From Rhodospirillales bacterium URHD0017 (lineage in GTDB: Bacteria; Pseudomonadota; Alphaproteobacteria; Reyranellales; Reyranellaceae), in NCBI GenBank assembly GCA_900110395.1, contig FODP01000010.1:1-64000 (forward strand): a stretch of DNA of 64,000 bases, in the 5' to 3' direction. Position 1 is the first letter of the stretch; each line of letters starts with the position of its first letter. Made by a program: the position numbers and the translations under genes. The notes beneath the pieces were generated by a model. That model was given only the letters and a program-made list of their open reading frames with translations, made no database searches and had not been told where the DNA came from. Shown piece after piece: positions 11,426-54,900 of this stretch.

Positions 11426-11434
11426 GCTCATGTT

Positions 11435-11512
11435 TCTCTTCCCCGCCAGGGGGAAAAGGTTGGGTGAGGGGGTTGCACGAGCTGTCGAAGCCCCCTCCCA
11501 GCCTCTCCCCCT
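11435..11512 (+). repeat. Intergenic palindromic repeat family A, copy 1 (right end truncated)
   Basis: It carries the left arm (CCCCGCCAGGGGG), the GGTTGGGTGAGGGGG block, the TTGCACGAGCTGTCGAAG centre and part of the right arm, where it runs straight into repeat family B. Copies 2 (14021-14111) and 3 (54784-54876) are full length. It follows the dioxygenase stop by 10 bp. Confidence 0.85.
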
Positions 11513-11603
11513 AGCCACCTACGCTGCGGTGCAGCTTCGGTGGCTTTAGCGGCAAGCCCGATCCAGATCCTCCGAAGCTCCGCAGGAGCGAAGGGGGACT
11601 AGC
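11511..11603 (+). repeat. Intergenic palindromic repeat family B, copy 1
   Basis: A 93-bp element bounded by CTAG at both ends, with TACGCTGC..GCAGCTTCGG on the left and CCTCCGAAGCTCCGCAGGAG on the right. The second copy is at 52086-52180 on the opposite strand, where it lies inside a coding region. The two copies agree at both ends but differ in the middle third. It fuses directly to the family A element. Confidence 0.85.
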
Positions 11604-11636
11604 GGGGCAGAGGAGCATGAAGCCATAGTCGGTGCG

Positions 11637-13964: not shown

Positions 13965-14020
13965 TCGGAGAGTGTAGCACCGCGGGCTGTGACTTTTGCC
14001 ACTCTCTCGATGTTCTTCTT

Positions 14021-14111
14021 CCTCTCCCCGCCAGGGGGAGAGGTTGGGTGAGGGGTTACAGACAGTCTTCGAAGCCCCCTCACCTGACCTCTCCCCCTGG
14101 CGGGGGAGAGG
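14021..14111 (+). repeat. Intergenic palindromic repeat family A, copy 2
   Basis: A 91-bp element with inverted ends (CCTCTCCCC..GGGGAGAGG) and the TTGGGTGAGGGG and CCCCCTCACC inner blocks that also pair. The centre reads TTACAGACAGTCTTCGAAG instead of the TTGCACGAGCTGTCGAAG of the other copies. It lies between the MBL-rhodanese start and the aldo/keto reductase stop. Confidence 0.88.
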
Positions 14112-47913: not shown

Positions 47914-49025
47914 GTGCTGAACCTTTCGATCCCGAGCCCATCGATCGGCAGGTTGGTGTTGCCCGTCGCAACCAGCTCCGCCATCACCGCGCCGGTGGCG
48001 GGACCGAGCTGGAAGCCGTGCGCCGAGAAGCCGAACTGATGGAACACGCCCTCTGACGTGCGGCTGGGACCAACGACCGGGATCTCGTCGGGCATGCGCG
48101 CCTCGATGCCGGCCCAGGCGCGCACGATGGTGGCCTCGCGCATCGCCGGGAACAGCTCCCACACCGTGCGGGCGCTGGTCGCGAGCTTGGCCCAGTCGAG
48201 CACCGTGCGGTTCTCATCGCGATAGGGCACGGCGAGATGACCGCCGCCGATCACCACCGTGCCGTTGGCGAGCTGCTTGAAGGAGAGTTTGCGGCCGCGC
48301 AGGATCACCACCGGGTCGATGAAGGCCGGCACGCGGCTGCTGACCATCAACATGGGCGCGATCACTTCCAGCGGTACCGGCTCGCCGAGTTGCGCGGCGA
48401 TGCGGTCAGCCCAGGCACCGGCGGCGTTCACCACCTTGGGCGCCTCGATCGGCCCGTCGCTGGTTTCCACCTTCCACACCGAGCCGTTGCGCGCGAGGCC
48501 GGTCACCCGCACGCCCTCGATAACCTCGGCGCCGCGCTCTACGGCGCGCCGGCGGAAAGCCTGGGTGGTGCGGAACGGGTCGGCGGCGCCGTCACGGCGC
48601 GAGACCAAGCCGCCCGGGCAGTGGTCGGACACCGCGGGCACCAAGCGCTTCAGCTCGGTGTGGTCGATCAGCTCTTCGTGGCTAAAGCCCCTTAGCCGCA
48701 GATCGTCGACGCGGGCGCGAAAACCCGCCAACTCCTGCTCGCTCTCCGCCACCAGCACCGTGCCGTGGCTGGAGAATCCGCAATCGTCGCCGACCAGCTC
48801 TTCGACGTTTTCCCAGATCGCCATCGAAGCGATCGACAACGGGATCTCGGCGATATGGCGCGCCAGCTGGCGTACGCCGCCGGCATTGACGCCCGAGGCA
48901 TGGCGGCCAGCGTAGTCCTTCTCGACCAGGATCGGCTTCAGGCCGCGCAGCGCCAGATGCAGCGCCGTCGAGCAGCCGTGCAGGCCCCCGCCGATAACAA
49001 CGACGTCGGCGGTCCGCGCGCTCAT
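47910..49025 (-). CDS. FAD-dependent oxidoreductase, DAO/sarcosine-oxidase beta type
   Basis: A 371-aa flavoprotein starting with VVVIGGGLHGCSTALHLALRG for FAD binding and closing with RMPDEIPVVGPSR then GFSAHGFQLGPATGA, the hallmark end of sarcosine oxidase beta/glycine oxidase-like proteins. It resembles the catalytic subunit of opine or hydroxyproline dehydrogenases (LhpB/OoxB type). With the BFD-type partner and 2Fe-2S protein upstream it probably forms a heteromeric amine dehydrogenase. A family C cruciform repeat starts at its initiation codon. Confidence 0.9.
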   Translation of the reverse strand: MSARTADVVVIGGGLHGCSTALHLALRGLKPILVEKDYAGRHASGVNAGGVRQLARHIAEIPLSIASMAIWENVEELVGDDCGFSSHGTVLVAESEQELAGFRARVDDLRLRGFSHEELIDHTELKRLVPAVSDHCPGGLVSRRDGAADPFRTTQAFRRRAVERGAEVIEGVRVTGLARNGSVWKVETSDGPIEAPKVVNAAGAWADRIAAQLGEPVPLEVIAPMLMVSSRVPAFIDPVVILRGRKLSFKQLANGTVVIGGGHLAVPYRDENRTVLDWAKLATSARTVWELFPAMREATIVRAWAGIEARMPDEIPVVGPSRTSEGVFHQFGFSAHGFQLGPATGAVMAELVATGNTNLPIDGLGIERFST

Positions 49026-49188
49026 TGCTGGGAGCGCGCCACTCCGTGGCGCTCATGTTCATCCTCTTGCGGACCGCGAGCCTCCGGCTCGCTCATGATC
49101 ATGAGCGCGCAAGGAGGGCGCGTCAGACGCGACCCAGCGCGCAGTCCGGAAGAATATGAGCGCCACGGAATGGCGCGCTCCCGGCAAT
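49024..49188. repeat. Palindromic repeat family C, long cruciform copy
   Basis: Arms 49024-49060 and 49152-49188 (37 bp) pair with three mismatches. Between them lie smaller hairpins: GCGAGCC-TCC-GGCTCGC (49076-49092), the perfect 16-bp palindrome GCTCATGATCATGAGC (49091-49106) and CGCGT-CAG-ACGCG (about 49118-49130). The arms also contain GCGCCAC-TCC-GTGGCGC. The element fills the gap between a flavoprotein stop (8 bp away) and the next start codon, which it overlaps. Confidence 0.9.
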
Positions 49189-49196
49189 GAGTCATC

Positions 49197-50591
49197 CTAT
49201 CGCTCCACCGCCTTGCGCTCGGCTTCGCTGATCGGCAGCGAGGCGAGCTCGGCGAGCGTGATGGGCTTCACCGGCGGACGCAGGCGGTAGTAGCCGACCG
49301 CGGCCGGCGTCGACTTGCGCTGGGTCGCGATCAGTTCTGTGACGGTGAGGCCGCACAGCCGGCCCTGGCATGGCCCCATGCCGCAACGCAGGAAGGCCTT
49401 CATCTGGTTCGGTCCCTCGCAGCCCATGTCGGCCGTGGCACGGACCTGGGCTGCCGTGACCTCTTCGCAGCGGCAGACCAGCGTCTCGCCCTCGGGCTGG
49501 CGGAAGGAATCGGCCGGACGGTTCAGCCAGTCAAGGAAGGCGCGGCCCATCTCCTCGCGCTGCAGGCGCTGGCGCACGCTCTGCGGATCGGGCAGGCGCG
49601 CCTCGGGCCTGAGCGCGCGCACCGCAGCGATGGCGGCGAGGCGTCCGCGTTCGGCCGCCGCCGTGCCGCCGGCGATGCCCGCGCCGTCGCCCGCCACCGC
49701 GATGCCGGGCACCGAGCTGCTAAAGTCCTGGTCGAGCACGGGCTGGAAGCAGAGCTGGCGCTCGTTCCATTCATGCGTCGCGCCGGCAGCGAGGGCGAGG
49801 TTGACGTTGGGCACCACGCCCTGATGCAGCAGCAGCAGATCGGCCGGCATGCGGCCGCGATCGGAGACGACTTCGCTCAGCTTGCCGTCGCCCGCGGCCG
49901 CGACGCTCGCGACACGACGGACCGGCACCTTGGCCTTGACCTCGCGCAGCAGCGCCAGGCCCTTGGCGAAGTACGGCGACAGCATGAAGTCGGGCAGATG
50001 CGGCGCGGCACGCAGCAGATTGCGACGCGGCGTGGTGTCGAGGATCGCCTCGAGCCTGCCGCCGGCGCGCAGGATCTGCGCCGCCAGCAGCCACATCAGC
50101 GGGCCGGTGCCAGCCATGACCGTGCGGCCATCAGGCAGCAGGCCCTGCGCCTTCAGCACCGTCTGCGCCGCGCCGGCCGTCATCACGCCCGGCAAGGTCC
50201 AACCGGGGATCGGGAACGGCCGTTCCTGCGAGCCGGTGGCGATGATGACGCGCCTGGCCTCGATCATGCGCGCCTTGCCGGCAATCGAGACGCCGACGAT
50301 GCGCTCAGGGTCGAGGCTCCACACCGTGGCGCCATTGACGATCAGGGCGCCGCTCGCCTTGGCCTCGTTGGCAAGCGCCTCGCCCGCCCAATAGTCCTCG
50401 CCCAGGATCGAGCGGTTGATGACGGGCGTGGATGTAATGCCGCGGTAGATCTGGCCACCAACGCCGGGATTCTCGTCGAACAGGACAGTTGTAACGCCGG
50501 CGCGTGCCGCCAGCGACGCGGCGGCAAGACCGGCAGGCCCGCCGCCGATGACGACGAGGTCGTAGGAGGGAGCCAGGTCGACGGCATTCAT
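49197..50591 (-). CDS. FAD/NAD(P)-dependent oxidoreductase with C-terminal BFD-like 2Fe-2S domain
   Basis: A 464-aa protein with two dinucleotide-binding motifs (VIGGGPAGLAAASLAARAG at the start, MAGTGPLMWLLAAQIL near 160) and a C-terminal cysteine cluster (CRCEEVT, then CGMGPCQGRLCG) as in the BFD/[2Fe-2S] domain of opine oxidase OoxA and hydroxyproline dehydrogenase LhpE. It transfers electrons from the amine-oxidising subunit. Repeat family D lies just upstream, and the AGGAG ribosome site is at its edge. It is the alpha-type subunit of the operon's dehydrogenase. Confidence 0.9.
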   Translation of the reverse strand: MNAVDLAPSYDLVVIGGGPAGLAAASLAARAGVTTVLFDENPGVGGQIYRGITSTPVINRSILGEDYWAGEALANEAKASGALIVNGATVWSLDPERIVGVSIAGKARMIEARRVIIATGSQERPFPIPGWTLPGVMTAGAAQTVLKAQGLLPDGRTVMAGTGPLMWLLAAQILRAGGRLEAILDTTPRRNLLRAAPHLPDFMLSPYFAKGLALLREVKAKVPVRRVASVAAAGDGKLSEVVSDRGRMPADLLLLHQGVVPNVNLALAAGATHEWNERQLCFQPVLDQDFSSSVPGIAVAGDGAGIAGGTAAAERGRLAAIAAVRALRPEARLPDPQSVRQRLQREEMGRAFLDWLNRPADSFRQPEGETLVCRCEEVTAAQVRATADMGCEGPNQMKAFLRCGMGPCQGRLCGLTVTELIATQRKSTPAAVGYYRLRPPVKPITLAELASLPISEAERKAVER

Positions 50592-50603
50592 TTGACCACA
50601 CTC

Positions 50604-50673
50604 CTGTCACCCCGAGCGAAGCGAGGGGCCTTTATGCAGCGGGCAAGGTCCCTCGCTACGCTCGGGATGACAG
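50604..50673. repeat. Palindromic repeat family D
   Basis: Arms 50604-50630 and 50647-50673 (27 bp each) pair at 24 positions around a 16-base loop, with CGAGCGAAGCGAGGG as the core. It lies between the 2Fe-2S gene and the BFD-type flavoprotein gene, and the upstream arm edge supplies bases of the latter's ribosome site. Such stems often fold in mRNA and could modulate the ratio of subunits. Confidence 0.85.
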
Positions 50674-50697
50674 TGGTGGCGTCTCGGGCAGTGTGCA

Positions 50698-50991
50698 TCA
50701 TCGTCCGGCCTCTCGCCTGCCCTGCTGTGTCTCCACCGTCATCCCCTCGTGCACCGGCACCAGGCAGGCCTGGCGGCTGCCGACGCCGTCGATGGTGACC
50801 AGGCAGTCGAAGCAGACGCCCATCAGGCAATAAGGAAGACGCGGCGCGCCTGTTACCGGCGTGGTGCGGCAACGATCGATGCCAGCGGCCAGCAGGGCCG
50901 CGGCGACCGTATCGCAGCTCCTGGCCTGCACGGGCTTGCCGTCGACCGTCAGAGCGACGACCGCGCCGGCGTCAGCCAGCCTCTTGAACAT
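50698..50991 (-). CDS. 2Fe-2S ferredoxin-like subunit
   Basis: The ATG at 50991 with GGAGG upstream gives 97 aa. Four cysteines in C-x4-C-x2-C-x12-C order (YCLMGVCFDC then QAC) bind a plant-type [2Fe-2S] cluster. Such small subunits (HcnA/LhpF/OoxX-like) pass electrons between the flavin subunits of opine, hydroxyproline and cyanide-forming dehydrogenases. The first 20 bp overlap the end of the DAO gene upstream. Confidence 0.9.
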   Translation of the reverse strand: MFKRLADAGAVVALTVDGKPVQARSCDTVAAALLAAGIDRCRTTPVTGAPRLPYCLMGVCFDCLVTIDGVGSRQACLVPVHEGMTVETQQGRREAGR

Positions 50992-52186
50992 GGAACCTCC
51001 GCGCACTGAAGGGAGCGACCAGCGACTTGTCGAGGGCACCGCGCGCAATCATGGGCGCGATGGTGAGGGCATGATTGGCCGCGAGCGTCACGCCGGAATG
51101 ACAACACACCGTGAAGGCGCCGGGATGGCTCTCCGATTCATCGTAGATCGGGAAGCCGTCCTGGGTCATCACGCGGATGGCGCTCCAGGTCCGCACGACA
51201 TTGGCGCTGCCGAGCACAGGAAACATGCGCACCGCGCGCTCGGCTTCGGTGGCGCTGACGCCCAAGGTCAGGCCGGCCGGATCGGTGCGCTCCTCCTTGG
51301 AATCGCCGATCATCACCGTGCCCTCGTCGGTCTGGCGAAGGGTGACGACGGGATGGCGCAGGAATGGCCGCAGCCGCTCGGTGACGACGATCTGGCCGCG
51401 CTCGGGCCGCATCGGGCATTCCAGGCCGACCATCGGCGCCAGATGCATGTTGGCGTTGCCGGCTGCCAGCGCGACGCGGTTGGCGCGGATCTCGCGATGA
51501 GCCGTCGTGAGCCGGAACTCGCCACCTTCGCGCGTGATGTTCTCGACGCGATGGCTCGGGAGGTAGGTGACGCCGCGGGCCTTGATGGCGGTGTGCAGCG
51601 TCCGAAACAAGCGCAGCGAGTTCACATGGCCGTCGAGCGGGCAGTAGCTGCCGCCCACCACCTCGAGCCCGATGTCGGGCAGCATCCTGGCGACCTGGGC
51701 GTGGTCCATGATCTCGGTCTTGTAGTCGACGATGCCGGGCTGGTTGTGCAGGCGCTTCAGGCTGTTGGCGCGCGCCTCGAGCTCGCGCTCCGACAGCGAC
51801 AGGTGGAAGCCGCCCGGCCGCTGGAAGCAGACGTCGAGACCGGTCTCCTCCTTCAGCGTCTGGGCGAAACCTTCCCACGCGTTCGACGAGCGGATGGTCC
51901 AGCCGGCATAGGGCGCCAGGCCCAGGCCCTTGCTCTGCACCCACACCAAAGCGAAGTTGCCACGGCTGGCGCGCACGGCGCGGTCGCCCTCATCGAGCAC
52001 GACGACGCGGCAGCCCTCGCGCGCCAGGCCCCAGGCGGTGGCGACGCCGACCAGCCCGCCGCCGACAACGGCGACGTCGAACTCGCTAGCCCCCCTTCGC
52101 TCCTGCGGAGCTTCGGAGGGCATGCGTCGAGCGCCTTGCACAGGTCCTCCGAAGCTGCTCTGCAGCGTAGGGGGGCTAGCGGCCAT
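50972..52186 (-). CDS. FAD-dependent oxidoreductase, DAO type, with repeat-encoded N-terminus
   Basis: A 404-aa flavoprotein. The start at 52186 has a strong GGAAGGAG site. The FAD motif (FDVAVVGGGLVGVATAWGL) begins only near residue 34; the preceding residues (ASPPTLQSSFGGPVQGARR) are encoded by repeat family B, which lies in frame without a stop. The C-terminus has the family end (TVCCHSGVTLAANHA). It is the second DAO-type flavoprotein of the operon and overlaps the permease by 11 bp and the 2Fe-2S gene by 20 bp. Confidence 0.9.
   Translation of the reverse strand: MAASPPTLQSSFGGPVQGARRMPSEAPQERRGASEFDVAVVGGGLVGVATAWGLAREGCRVVVLDEGDRAVRASRGNFALVWVQSKGLGLAPYAGWTIRSSNAWEGFAQTLKEETGLDVCFQRPGGFHLSLSERELEARANSLKRLHNQPGIVDYKTEIMDHAQVARMLPDIGLEVVGGSYCPLDGHVNSLRLFRTLHTAIKARGVTYLPSHRVENITREGGEFRLTTAHREIRANRVALAAGNANMHLAPMVGLECPMRPERGQIVVTERLRPFLRHPVVTLRQTDEGTVMIGDSKEERTDPAGLTLGVSATEAERAVRMFPVLGSANVVRTWSAIRVMTQDGFPIYDESESHPGAFTVCCHSGVTLAANHALTIAPMIARGALDKSLVAPFSARRFHVQEAG
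52086..52180 (-). repeat. Palindromic repeat family B, copy 2 (inside the DAO gene start)
   Basis: A 95-bp element bounded by CTAG, sharing the TACGCTGC..GCAGCTTCGG and CCTCCGAAGCTCCGCAGGAG blocks of copy 1 (11511-11603). On the minus strand it begins with the permease stop codon (52176-52178) and ends just before the FAD motif of the DAO protein, so most of it is coding. The ATG at 52123 within it is an alternative but worse start. Confidence 0.88.
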
Positions 52187-52982
52187 CGGCGCTCCTTCCG
52201 ACCAGAAGGCGCTCCAGGCCATAGGCACGATCGAGCGCGATCAGCGCCAGCACGGTGACGGCGATGACGACGGCCGAGACCGACGTCACCAGCGGATCGA
52301 TATTGTCCTGGATGTAGAGGAACATGCGCACCGGCAGGGTCTCGGTGCCGGGCGCGGCGATGAACACCGTCATGGTCACTTCGTCGAACGAGTTGATGAA
52401 GGCGAGCGCCGAGCCGCTGATGAGGCCGGGCAACACCAGGGGCAGCGTGATGCGCCGCAGCACCGTGCGGTCCGAGGCGCCGAGCGAGATGGCGGCGTGC
52501 TCGATCGAGCGGTCGAGGCCGACCGCCGAAGCCAGCGTCAGGCGCAAGGCGAAGGGCAGCACGACCACAATGTGCGCCAGGACCAGGCCGACGAAGGTGC
52601 CGCCCAGCCCAAGCTCGGTGAAGAAGCGCAGGAAGGCGATGCCCAGCACCACGTGCGGGATCATGAGCGGCGACATGAACAGCGCCGTCATGGCGTCGCG
52701 GCCGCGGAAGCGATGGCGGCCGATGGCGAGGGCGGCCGGCACCGAGAAGGCGACGGCAATGGCCGAGCTCAGCGCGCCGAGCCACAGGCTGCGCCAGAAG
52801 GCCGAGATGAACTCGGGATAGCGGCCGATGGCATAGAACCAGCGCAGCGACCAGCGGTCGGTCGGGAACGAGAGATAGCCTTCGGGCGTGAAGGCGACGA
52901 AGCAGACGACCAGGATGGGTGCCAGCATGAAGATGACGAACAGCGTGTGGTAGACGAGCGCGACCGGTCCATTCTTGCTCAT
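52176..52982 (-). CDS. ABC transporter permease, PotC-like
   Basis: A 268-aa inner-membrane protein with six hydrophobic segments. The EAA loop (EHAAISLGASDRTVLRRITLPLVLPG) is well kept, and LVYHTLFVIFMLAPILVVCFVAF opens the chain. This is the second permease of a spermidine/putrescine-type importer. Its stop codon lies in a family B repeat and overlaps the DAO start by 11 bp. Confidence 0.93.
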   Translation of the reverse strand: MSKNGPVALVYHTLFVIFMLAPILVVCFVAFTPEGYLSFPTDRWSLRWFYAIGRYPEFISAFWRSLWLGALSSAIAVAFSVPAALAIGRHRFRGRDAMTALFMSPLMIPHVVLGIAFLRFFTELGLGGTFVGLVLAHIVVVLPFALRLTLASAVGLDRSIEHAAISLGASDRTVLRRITLPLVLPGLISGSALAFINSFDEVTMTVFIAAPGTETLPVRMFLYIQDNIDPLVTSVSAVVIAVTVLALIALDRAYGLERLLVGRSADGR

Positions 52983-52992
52983 GACGTGCGGC

Positions 52993-53844
52993 TCATCCGA
53001 ACACCTGTGCGTAGCGGCGTTCGACCAGGCGGCTGGCGCCGACCACGATCGCCACCAGGGCGACCAGCAGCAGCACGGCGACCGCAGCGCCCAGCGGCCA
53101 GTTGAGCGTGTTGAGGAATTCGTCGTAGGCCAGCGTCGAGGCGACTTTCAGCCGACGGCCGCCGATGATGGCGGGCGTGGCGAAGGCGCTGGCCGCCAGG
53201 GCGAAGACGATGATGGCGCCCGACAGGATGCCGGGCATGACCTGCGGCAGCACGATGCGGCGCACAACCGTGAACGGACTGGCGCCCAGCGCCACCGCCG
53301 CGTTCTCGACCTGCGGGTCGAGGCGCTGCAGCGCCGCCCACACCGCCAGCACCATGTAGGGCATCAGCACATGCGTCAGCGCCACGATGACGCCGGTCTC
53401 GGTGAACATGAACGGCAATGGGGCGGAGATCACGCCCATCGACACCAGCGCCTTGTTGATGAGCCCCGAGTTCCCGCCGAACAGCAGAGCCCAGCCCAGG
53501 GTGCGCGCGACCACCGAGATCAGCAGCGGGCCCAGGATCACCAGCAGGAAGAGGCCGCGCCACGGGCTCTTCATGCGATTGAGGATGTAGGCCTCGGGCG
53601 CGCCCAGCAGGGCGGCGAACAGCGTGACGAAGAAGGCGATGCGGAAGGTCCGCCAGAACATCTCCAGGAAGTAGGAGTCGGTAAAGACCTCGCGCCAGTT
53701 CTTAAGGGTGAACACCGGCTCGATGCCCTTGTACTGGCCCCAGTCGTGGAACGACAGCAGCACGGTCATGACCAGCGGGATGATCACGATGGCGCCGAAC
53801 AGCAGCAGCGCCGGGAGGCTGAGGAGGTAGGGCGTCGATTTCAT
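52993..53844 (-). CDS. ABC transporter permease, PotB-like
   Basis: The ATG at 53844 overlaps the ATPase stop by 4 bp, giving 283 aa with six membrane spans. The EAA loop (ENAAVALGASPFTVVRRIVLPQVMPG) contacts the ATPase. It forms the translocation pore with the PotC-like protein encoded 10 bp downstream. The family (2_aminoethylphosphonate/spermidine-type) transports amines and related compounds. Confidence 0.93.
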   Translation of the reverse strand: MKSTPYLLSLPALLLFGAIVIIPLVMTVLLSFHDWGQYKGIEPVFTLKNWREVFTDSYFLEMFWRTFRIAFFVTLFAALLGAPEAYILNRMKSPWRGLFLLVILGPLLISVVARTLGWALLFGGNSGLINKALVSMGVISAPLPFMFTETGVIVALTHVLMPYMVLAVWAALQRLDPQVENAAVALGASPFTVVRRIVLPQVMPGILSGAIIVFALAASAFATPAIIGGRRLKVASTLAYDEFLNTLNWPLGAAVAVLLLVALVAIVVGASRLVERRYAQVFG

Positions 53845-54764
53845 GTCGCGGCCCACGCGAGGTGTACCGCCTCACCCTCGCCCGGCATCGCCTCGCCGGT
53901 GTTCTGGCGGATGACCGTCACCAGGCCGCCAGCCGTCTCGACCTGATAGAGCCAATGGTTGCCCTGGAAGATGCGCGTGCGCACCTTGCCGGCGAGGCCC
54001 GACGTCGCGAACCAGATCTTCTCCGGCCGCACCGTCGTGCCGTTCACGAGATTGGTGCGGCCCAGGAAGTTCGCGACGAACGGCGTCGCCGGCCGCTCAT
54101 AGGCCTCGTGCGGCGGGCCGATCTGCTCGGCGCGGCCGTGGTTCATCACCACCACGCGGTCCGACAGCGCCATCGCCTCGGCCTGGTCGTGGGTCACCAG
54201 GATGGTCGTGGTGCCGACCGTGCGCTGGATCTGGCGCAGCTCGATCTGCATCTCCTCGCGCAGCTTGGCGTCGAGGTTCGAGAGCGGCTCATCGAGCAGC
54301 AGGATCTGCGGCCGGATGACCAGCGCGCGAGCGAGCGCCACGCGCTGCTGCTGGCCGCCCGACATCTGGCGCGGGTAGCGGCCGGTAAAGGCGCCGAGGC
54401 CGACCAGCTCCAACGTCTCGCCGACGCGCCGGGTGCGCTCGGCGGCGGCGACGCCCTGCATCTCGAGCCCGAACGCCACGTTCTCCACCACCGTCATGTG
54501 CGGGAAGAGCGCATAGCTCTGGAACACGATGCCGAGCCCGCGCTTGGCCGGCTTCACCGCCAGAAGGTCGCGGCCTTCCAGCCGGATCGCGCCGCCGCTC
54601 GGCTCGACGAAGCCCGCGATCATCTGCAGGGTCGTGGTCTTGCCGCAGCCCGACGGCCCCAGCAGGGAGACGAACTCACCTTTCTCGACGGACAAGGTCA
54701 GGCCGTCGACGGCGGTGTGGGTGCCGAAGCGCTTGCTCAGCCCTTCCAGCGACAGGAAGCTCAT
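53841..54764 (-). CDS. ABC transporter ATP-binding protein, PotA-like
   Basis: The ATG at 54764 gives 307 aa; sequence further upstream is repeat A in frame and is not protein-like. Walker A is GPSGCGKTT (36-44), followed by the Q-loop, signature MSGGQQQRVALARAL, Walker B ILLLDEPLSNLD and the switch VTHDQAEAM. A C-terminal TOBE-like domain follows (NGTTVRPEKIWFA). It powers the amine-type importer and is 4 bp overlapped by the permease gene. Confidence 0.94.
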   Translation of the reverse strand: MSFLSLEGLSKRFGTHTAVDGLTLSVEKGEFVSLLGPSGCGKTTTLQMIAGFVEPSGGAIRLEGRDLLAVKPAKRGLGIVFQSYALFPHMTVVENVAFGLEMQGVAAAERTRRVGETLELVGLGAFTGRYPRQMSGGQQQRVALARALVIRPQILLLDEPLSNLDAKLREEMQIELRQIQRTVGTTTILVTHDQAEAMALSDRVVVMNHGRAEQIGPPHEAYERPATPFVANFLGRTNLVNGTTVRPEKIWFATSGLAGKVRTRIFQGNHWLYQVETAGGLVTVIRQNTGEAMPGEGEAVHLAWAAT

Positions 54765-54783
54765 CGCACCGCTCGCTCGTGCT

Positions 54784-54876
54784 CCTCTCCCCCCGCCAGG
54801 GGGAGAGGTTGGGTGAGGGGATTGCACGAGCTGTCGAAGCCCCCTCACCTAGCCTCTCCCCCTGGCGGGGGAGAGG
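54784..54876 (-). repeat. Intergenic palindromic repeat family A, copy 3
   Basis: A full 93-bp copy with paired ends (CCTCTCCCC..GGGGAGAGG), sharing TTGCACGAGCTGTCGAAG with copy 1 and the CCCCCTCACCT block with copy 2. It lies between the receptor gene and the ATPase gene inside the operon, so it could act as a stem-loop that sets receptor transcripts above the downstream genes. Confidence 0.88.
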
Positions 54877-54900
54877 AACATGAGTCGAGGCAAGCAAGAA

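Follow-up and report, generated by a model that had tools for sequence, protein, structure and literature searches.

A palindromic MITE-like element in frame within the first codons of a DAO-family flavoprotein gene of Reyranella

Can a repeated palindrome have become the N-terminus of an otherwise ordinary flavoprotein, and if so, how did the overlapping genes at the site survive its arrival? The question is raised by a 64,000-nt stretch of the Rhodospirillales bacterium URHD0017 genome (contig FODP01000010.1; hereafter the window), where minus-strand ABC transporter genes are followed by genes for amine-oxidase-like flavoproteins. Positions 52086-52186 of this stretch were originally predicted, from sequence alone, to contain an intergenic repeat encoding about 31 of the first 33 residues of a DAO-family oxidoreductase and also supplying the stop codon of the upstream permease. 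The best NCBIfam match of this permease was PotC, at a score below the PotC cut-off, and a 2Fe-2S protein and a sarcosine-oxidase-alpha-like protein are encoded downstream of the DAO gene on the same strand. Comparison with orthologues makes it likely, with a probability of roughly 0.85, that the additional DAO segment is the result of an in-frame landing of a mobile MITE-like palindrome, which kept the ancestral start and stop codons and added 30 residues.

Filled and empty sites at the DAO gene

Features of the locus are collected in Table 1. The DAO frame, opening with the ATG at 52186-52184, stays open across the element and into the FAD motif, which places the repeat in frame between ribosome-binding site and FAD motif, as predicted.

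Table 1 Coordinates of the element and of neighbouring features in the window
Feature	Position	Strand	Basis
Palindrome of 88 nt, MITE-like (second copy of 'family B')	52089..52176	-	Fold and orthologue comparison
Permease-side copy of the duplicated TA, forming the first two bases of the TAG stop	52177..52178	.	Single TA in insert-free orthologues
TA duplication, DAO side	52087..52088	.	Orthologue comparison
Added codons: 90 nt = 30 codons, residues 5-34, PPTLQSSFGGPVQGARRMPSEAPQERRGAS	52085..52174	-	Orthologue comparison
DAO-family FAD-dependent oxidoreductase, 404 aa from ATG 52186, PF01266	50972..52186	-	
Ribosome-binding site GGAAGGAG, spaced 5 nt from the ATG and shared with close relatives that lack the insert	52192..52199	-	
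ABC transporter permease, PF00528; TAG stop overlaps DAO start	52176..52982	-	
Copy 1 of the element, between genes, nested in another repeat (CCTCTCCCCC...GGGGCAGAGG)	11512..11601	+	

The repeat is genuine. The palindrome region folds as DNA with -40.1 kcal/mol (z = -6.68, 0 of 200 shuffles as good), and a 107-nt stretch gave 27 matches in its own 8.18-Mb genome (E ≤ 0.001), a count in which the palindrome causes some copies to appear on both strands and which includes half copies. The match to copy 1 spans window positions 11508-11604 at 79% identity. A search of window positions 50000-54500 against Rfam produced no matches at the gathering score.

The DAO family was present in 70 of 75 genomes, and the 5' region was read at 30 fetched loci. 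The orthologue alignment that the original prediction had called for in advance bore it out: the segment was absent from 28 of the 30 loci, and at none of them were the same residues encoded by unrelated DNA. The two filled loci belong to separate assemblies, the window genome (G000) and a close relative (G030). The nearest insert-free relatives (G046, G015, G044, G025 and G057), with DAO cores 93-97% identical, all read GGAAGGAGCGCCGATGGCCGCTAGCGAGTTC at the junction, with small differences. In close insert-free relatives the ribosome site, the ATG and the permease TAG, the latter within GCTAGC, are found at the same place, and all three therefore predate the insertion. The 30 codons follow directly after MAAS and lengthen the protein from 374 to 404 residues, so that the predicted extent was near, if not exact. 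Among distant loci, four (L035, L037, L048 and L049) have a different gene upstream of DAO, and differences of up to roughly ten residues occur between N-termini, so this end of the protein tolerates change.

The site is not intergenic, as had been thought, and lies in the overlap of the permease and DAO genes (ATGGCCGCTAG). In the permease TAG at 52178-52176, the first two bases belong to the target dinucleotide and the G is contributed by the element, as its first base. With G at its start and C at its end, the element restores TAG on insertion, which explains why the repeat had seemed to supply the stop codon of the permease; the element gives only the G, and the stop codon itself is ancestral, being seen in insert-free relatives.

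In our reading, the TA of the permease TAG stop, which lies within the first codons of DAO, received a non-autonomous 88-nt element and was duplicated in the process. The G and C ends re-formed TAG and left the permease unchanged, and because 88 + 2 = 90 nt, the DAO frame was kept. DAO would start at its ancestral ATG and gain 30 residues ahead of the FAD domain. Mobilisation was presumably in trans, by a TA-targeting (IS630-like) transposase, and the added segment is probably a flexible tail, tolerated and with no role of its own. The insertion and the open frame are near certain; translation of the 30 residues is very likely, judging by the intact frame and start signals, and the predicted repeat-derived N-terminus is supported to the extent that genome comparison can do so. 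Were translation to start inside the element, at the ATG at 52123 (residue 22), only 13 element-derived residues would be left. Such an in-frame ATG does exist and is retained in G030, but no AGGAG-like site was seen by eye before it, while the ancestral ATG and its ribosome site are intact; the latter two make a start at residue 22 or later unlikely, and we give an internal start very little credence.

Two further repeats were observed near flavoprotein genes of the window. Another palindromic repeat (CCCCGAGCGAAGCGAGG...CCTCGCTACGCTCGGG; 50605-50675) is located just upstream of the next flavoprotein gene start (50591), and an inverted repeat with 44-nt arms, 91% complementary (49021-49064 and 49148-49191), adjoins a flavoprotein gene start at 49025.

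A MITE-like family in Reyranella

From 125 loci, 45 distinct full-length copies were drawn, some of which represent one insertion in two genomes (L083/L084, L087/L097, L089/L104, L096/L112). Both ends of full copies read G-CCNYCCTWCGCTSCNGNGSAGCTTCGG and the centre is variable; in many copies the two end arms, of ~30 nt, both follow the pattern TAGCCNYCCTWCGCTSCNGNGSAGCTTCGG. For 27 of the 45 it was possible to assign the end dinucleotides (TA/TA in 19, CA/CA in four, TG/TG in one, discordant in three), the other 18 being copies where fixed trimming missed the dinucleotide (several had CTAG one base off) or where the ends were degenerate. Comparison with empty sites at four coding sites gave target duplications of TA, TA, TG and TA. 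The element is shorter than 500 bp (88 nt), has no transposase and carries terminal inverted repeats; the family is MITE-like and duplicates 2 bp of its target, usually TA and rarely CA or TG. A 4-bp CTAG duplication of IS5-like kind was considered for the present family and dropped, as TTAG, GTAG and CTAT ends occur and CA/CA or TG/TG agree at both ends.

It could be argued that we are dealing with a REP/BIME or terminator hairpin rather than a mobile element, given that the hairpin is strong and often found at gene ends, that ~30-nt single-hairpin half copies exist, and that imperfect hairpins in several copies are a likeness to REP/BIME. Excerpts of PMC3733652 give REPs as 20-40 bp, however, and the present element, at ~88 nt, with a target duplication, TA-type ends on both sides and coding insertions, does not conform to a 20-40 bp unit with GTAG or CGTC at one end. 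For full-length copies at the four coding sites, the hairpin reading is already contradicted by precise empty sites and the 2-bp duplication; overall we find it scarcely credible. Half copies consisting of a single hairpin of ~30 nt (CCTCCGAAGCTCCGCAGGAGCGAAGG) were seen at L018-L027 and at many loci of the genus.

A search of the whole genus matched the element in 13 of 65 genomes, in some via half copies only. In a collection of named genomes, described as covering 84,980 species, the exact end pattern was found only in 13 stretches from six assemblies, namely Reyranella soli, two Reyranella MAGs and three MAGs labelled Rhodospirillales or Alphaproteobacteria. Shared DNA identified G015 as R. 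soli and G030, G044, G025, G046 and G029 as the five MAGs, and the window genome, being placed in the same genus, is a Reyranella. In a wider sample of 289 Alphaproteobacteria, the ends were matched at ≤ 2 mismatches in two, the window genome and G088. The latter, from another alphaproteobacterial family, has repeats whose left half (CTCCCTACGCTGCNGCGCAGCTTCGG) is similar and which adjoin a sequence that looks tRNA-like by inspection (L190, L192). Phage and plasmid collections searched with one G025 copy gave no match.

A second repeat family (CCTCTCCCCCTGGCGGGGGAGAGG type) is present at window positions 11427-11604, 14010-14106 and 54775-54884, and the present element is nested in it several times; at L005/L014 both ends of the element lie at CTGG inside this second family.

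The terminal repeat was absent from 20 IS630-type DDE_3 loci in six genomes, apart from one match with seven mismatches. Nor was any recognised transposase found between distant element ends at the loci examined. Inverted ends 300-4000 bp apart (≤ 4 mismatches) occurred at two loci, L021 and L125. Of two ORFs scanned at L125, one matched the phage adaptor family SU10_adaptor and the other matched nothing.

Coding insertions and stop codons

Scoring of ORFs around copies, followed by fetching of orthologues, revealed three more coding sites; all four sites, in unrelated genes, gain 90 nt and have empty orthologous counterparts. An ImuB-like Y-family polymerase (PF00817) reads MKRIVSLWFPKLSTDRLARATPDWS-[30 aa]-RAAATVVW in G044 and has a 90-nt insert in G025 as well, being filled at two of 11 loci and empty at nine (577 versus 547 aa); its target TA is part of the TAG stop of an overlapping upstream gene. 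In a metallophosphoesterase (PF12850) of G025, the insert lies inside the domain (GRVL-[30 aa]-VVNPGS) with a TG duplication, and the other eight of nine loci are empty. The third gene, without a Pfam match and named for a Tat-like signal by inspection, reads ATG-C-TA-[element]-TA-GGCCGG in G030 and has an empty CTAG counterpart, ATGCTAGGACGG, in G015 (212 versus 182 aa); it is filled at one of 11 loci, and the nine beyond G015 are also empty, but start differently there.

Seven further candidates (L064, L065, L061, L113, L093, L117 and L123) were rejected as coding insertions, being upstream extensions of genes that by inspection seem to start downstream. By inspection, L119 (G030:C92) may be a fifth in-frame insertion, N-terminal in a tail-collar-like phage protein; its ends are unclear and it was left uncounted.

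Net length modulo 3 was zero in all six coding copies (four sites) among 27 copies and split 7/7/7 in the remaining 21, a contrast which is suggestive only and partly selected, because coding copies were picked by their spanning ORFs. Over the 27 copies, frame +1 was open in 21, -1 in 19, +2 in 15, -2 in 13 and +0 in three. DAO and ImuB use +1, while the phosphoesterase and the Tat-signal-like protein use -2 on the other strand (by inspection), so no single conserved peptide comes from the element.

Counting shared insertions twice and weak copies as well, we found that a well-scored ORF ends in a stop codon beginning exactly at the element's terminal dinucleotide in 24 of the 45 copies. As background, stop codons made up seven of 27 CTAG sites in the window, including CTAG at the elements' own ends, and 22 of 756 TA sites. 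The excess likely reflects target choice, since C-TA-G is seldom met within GC-rich genes but often at TAG stops. More tentatively, the family may be a doubly neutral inserter, whose G...C ends re-form TAG at a TA target and whose 88 + 2 nt keep reading frames; this generalisation is possible, although we would not count on it. No description of stop-codon-restoring MITEs was found in openly licensed PMC literature.

The added segment and its relation to known elements

Codon usage log-odds were -12.3 over the 30 codons of the insert and +16.0 over the next 30 codons, with a training set that contained the DAO gene itself. Between G000 and G030, 5 of 90 nt of the DAO insert differ and four of the five alter amino acids. 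The insert changes more slowly than synonymous sites of the DAO core (75.5 of 283.5 differing, dS = 0.33; p = 6e-6 in Fisher's test with 75 of 283), and its 30-nt end arms show no change, though ~27% of core synonymous sites differ. Pure neutrality does not account for this slow change; constraint or conversion may act on the arms. In ImuB, dN and dS were 0.215 and 0.218 for the insert versus 0.045 and 0.218 for the core, the 18 differences over 96 nt compared amounting to the synonymous rate.

The low divergence of the DAO insert and the frame kept in both genomes would fit 30 residues that serve the enzyme and are under selection. We consider this improbable, as non-synonymous changes make up four of the five, the codons used are foreign, relatives manage without the segment and the insert in ImuB diverges as fast as synonymous sites do; with dN close to dS in ImuB and mostly non-synonymous change in DAO, the insert lacks a signature of amino-acid selection. 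In the AlphaFold model of DAO, residues 1-32 have pLDDT < 50 and no secondary structure, the first strand being 36-41, in a weak model (mean pLDDT 47.0); structure models (mean pLDDT 47.0 and 57.8) were too weak to judge fit. The insert probably has no function of its own, as far as these comparisons indicate.

The main rival explanation places the effect in the RNA: a hairpin just after the start codon would mainly lower or uncouple DAO translation, with the peptide incidental. As RNA, the region forms a strong fold (-92.9 kcal/mol, z = -3.78, one of 200 shuffles as good), and the mean unpaired probability over +1 to +15 was 0.12 in G000 and 0.01 in G030 compared to 0.25-0.43 in five insert-free relatives; identity of the end arms between the two genomes points the same way. 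Openness of the ribosome site (0.27 in G000 versus 0.25-0.67 in relatives) and of the start codon (0.56 and 0.06 versus 0.06-0.63) was not clearly lower, however, ribosomes that re-initiate after translating the permease could unfold the hairpin, and the ImuB element lies ~77 nt inside its gene and has freely diverged. A mainly regulatory role of this kind is conceivable but, in our judgement, doubtful.

With the DAO insert taken as an in-frame landing of a mobile element, Rickettsia RPE, invoked from the start, proved an apt comparison in light of the three other sites, if not the sole precedent: Correia 107-bp (Neisseria) and ERIC 127-bp forms also take part in in-frame ORF fusions, according to excerpts of PMC2229807. 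RPE are described in excerpts of PMC10969869 and PMC2229807 as palindromes of ~100-150 bp, located in frame inside unrelated conserved genes and between genes, with 19 reading frames cited in the latter. The present element likewise sits in frame in unrelated conserved genes, a likeness in mode of action; it differs in host, in TA duplication at empty sites, in the many copies on stop codons, in the use of two frames with no single conserved peptide and in having four sites versus 19. Correia/NEMIS, ERIC and RUP-type MITEs are bounded by inverted repeats and by 5'TA3', which is duplicated, and RUP is linked to IS630-Spn1 (same excerpts of PMC2229807). Compared by description only, these share TA ends, inverted repeats and (Correia, ERIC) in-frame fusion with our element, for which no partner IS was found. 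QMITE1 of Coxiella burnetii, a MITE often overlapping annotated ORFs, is set apart by its 300-400 bp, 2-3 nt repeats of variable sequence and own promoters, as given in excerpts of PMC5896051. No published work on repeats of Reyranella was found in openly licensed PMC literature. By these descriptions, the family appears to be a new one of a known kind, RPE/Correia/ERIC-like in action, with no earlier description found.

In-frame palindrome insertions are best known from Rickettsia, and a 2024 MITE review (PMC10969869) calls similar MITE-mediated protein evolution in other prokaryotes 'conceivable'. The present 8-Mb genome and related ones supply four orthologue-controlled cases in ordinary enzymes, each with its exact empty site, so that tolerated versus useful inserts are directly testable. 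If the family is indeed a doubly neutral inserter, it could enter compact overlapping operons with the upstream gene ended correctly and the downstream protein lengthened, a way in which new protein segments could arise repeatedly outside Rickettsia.
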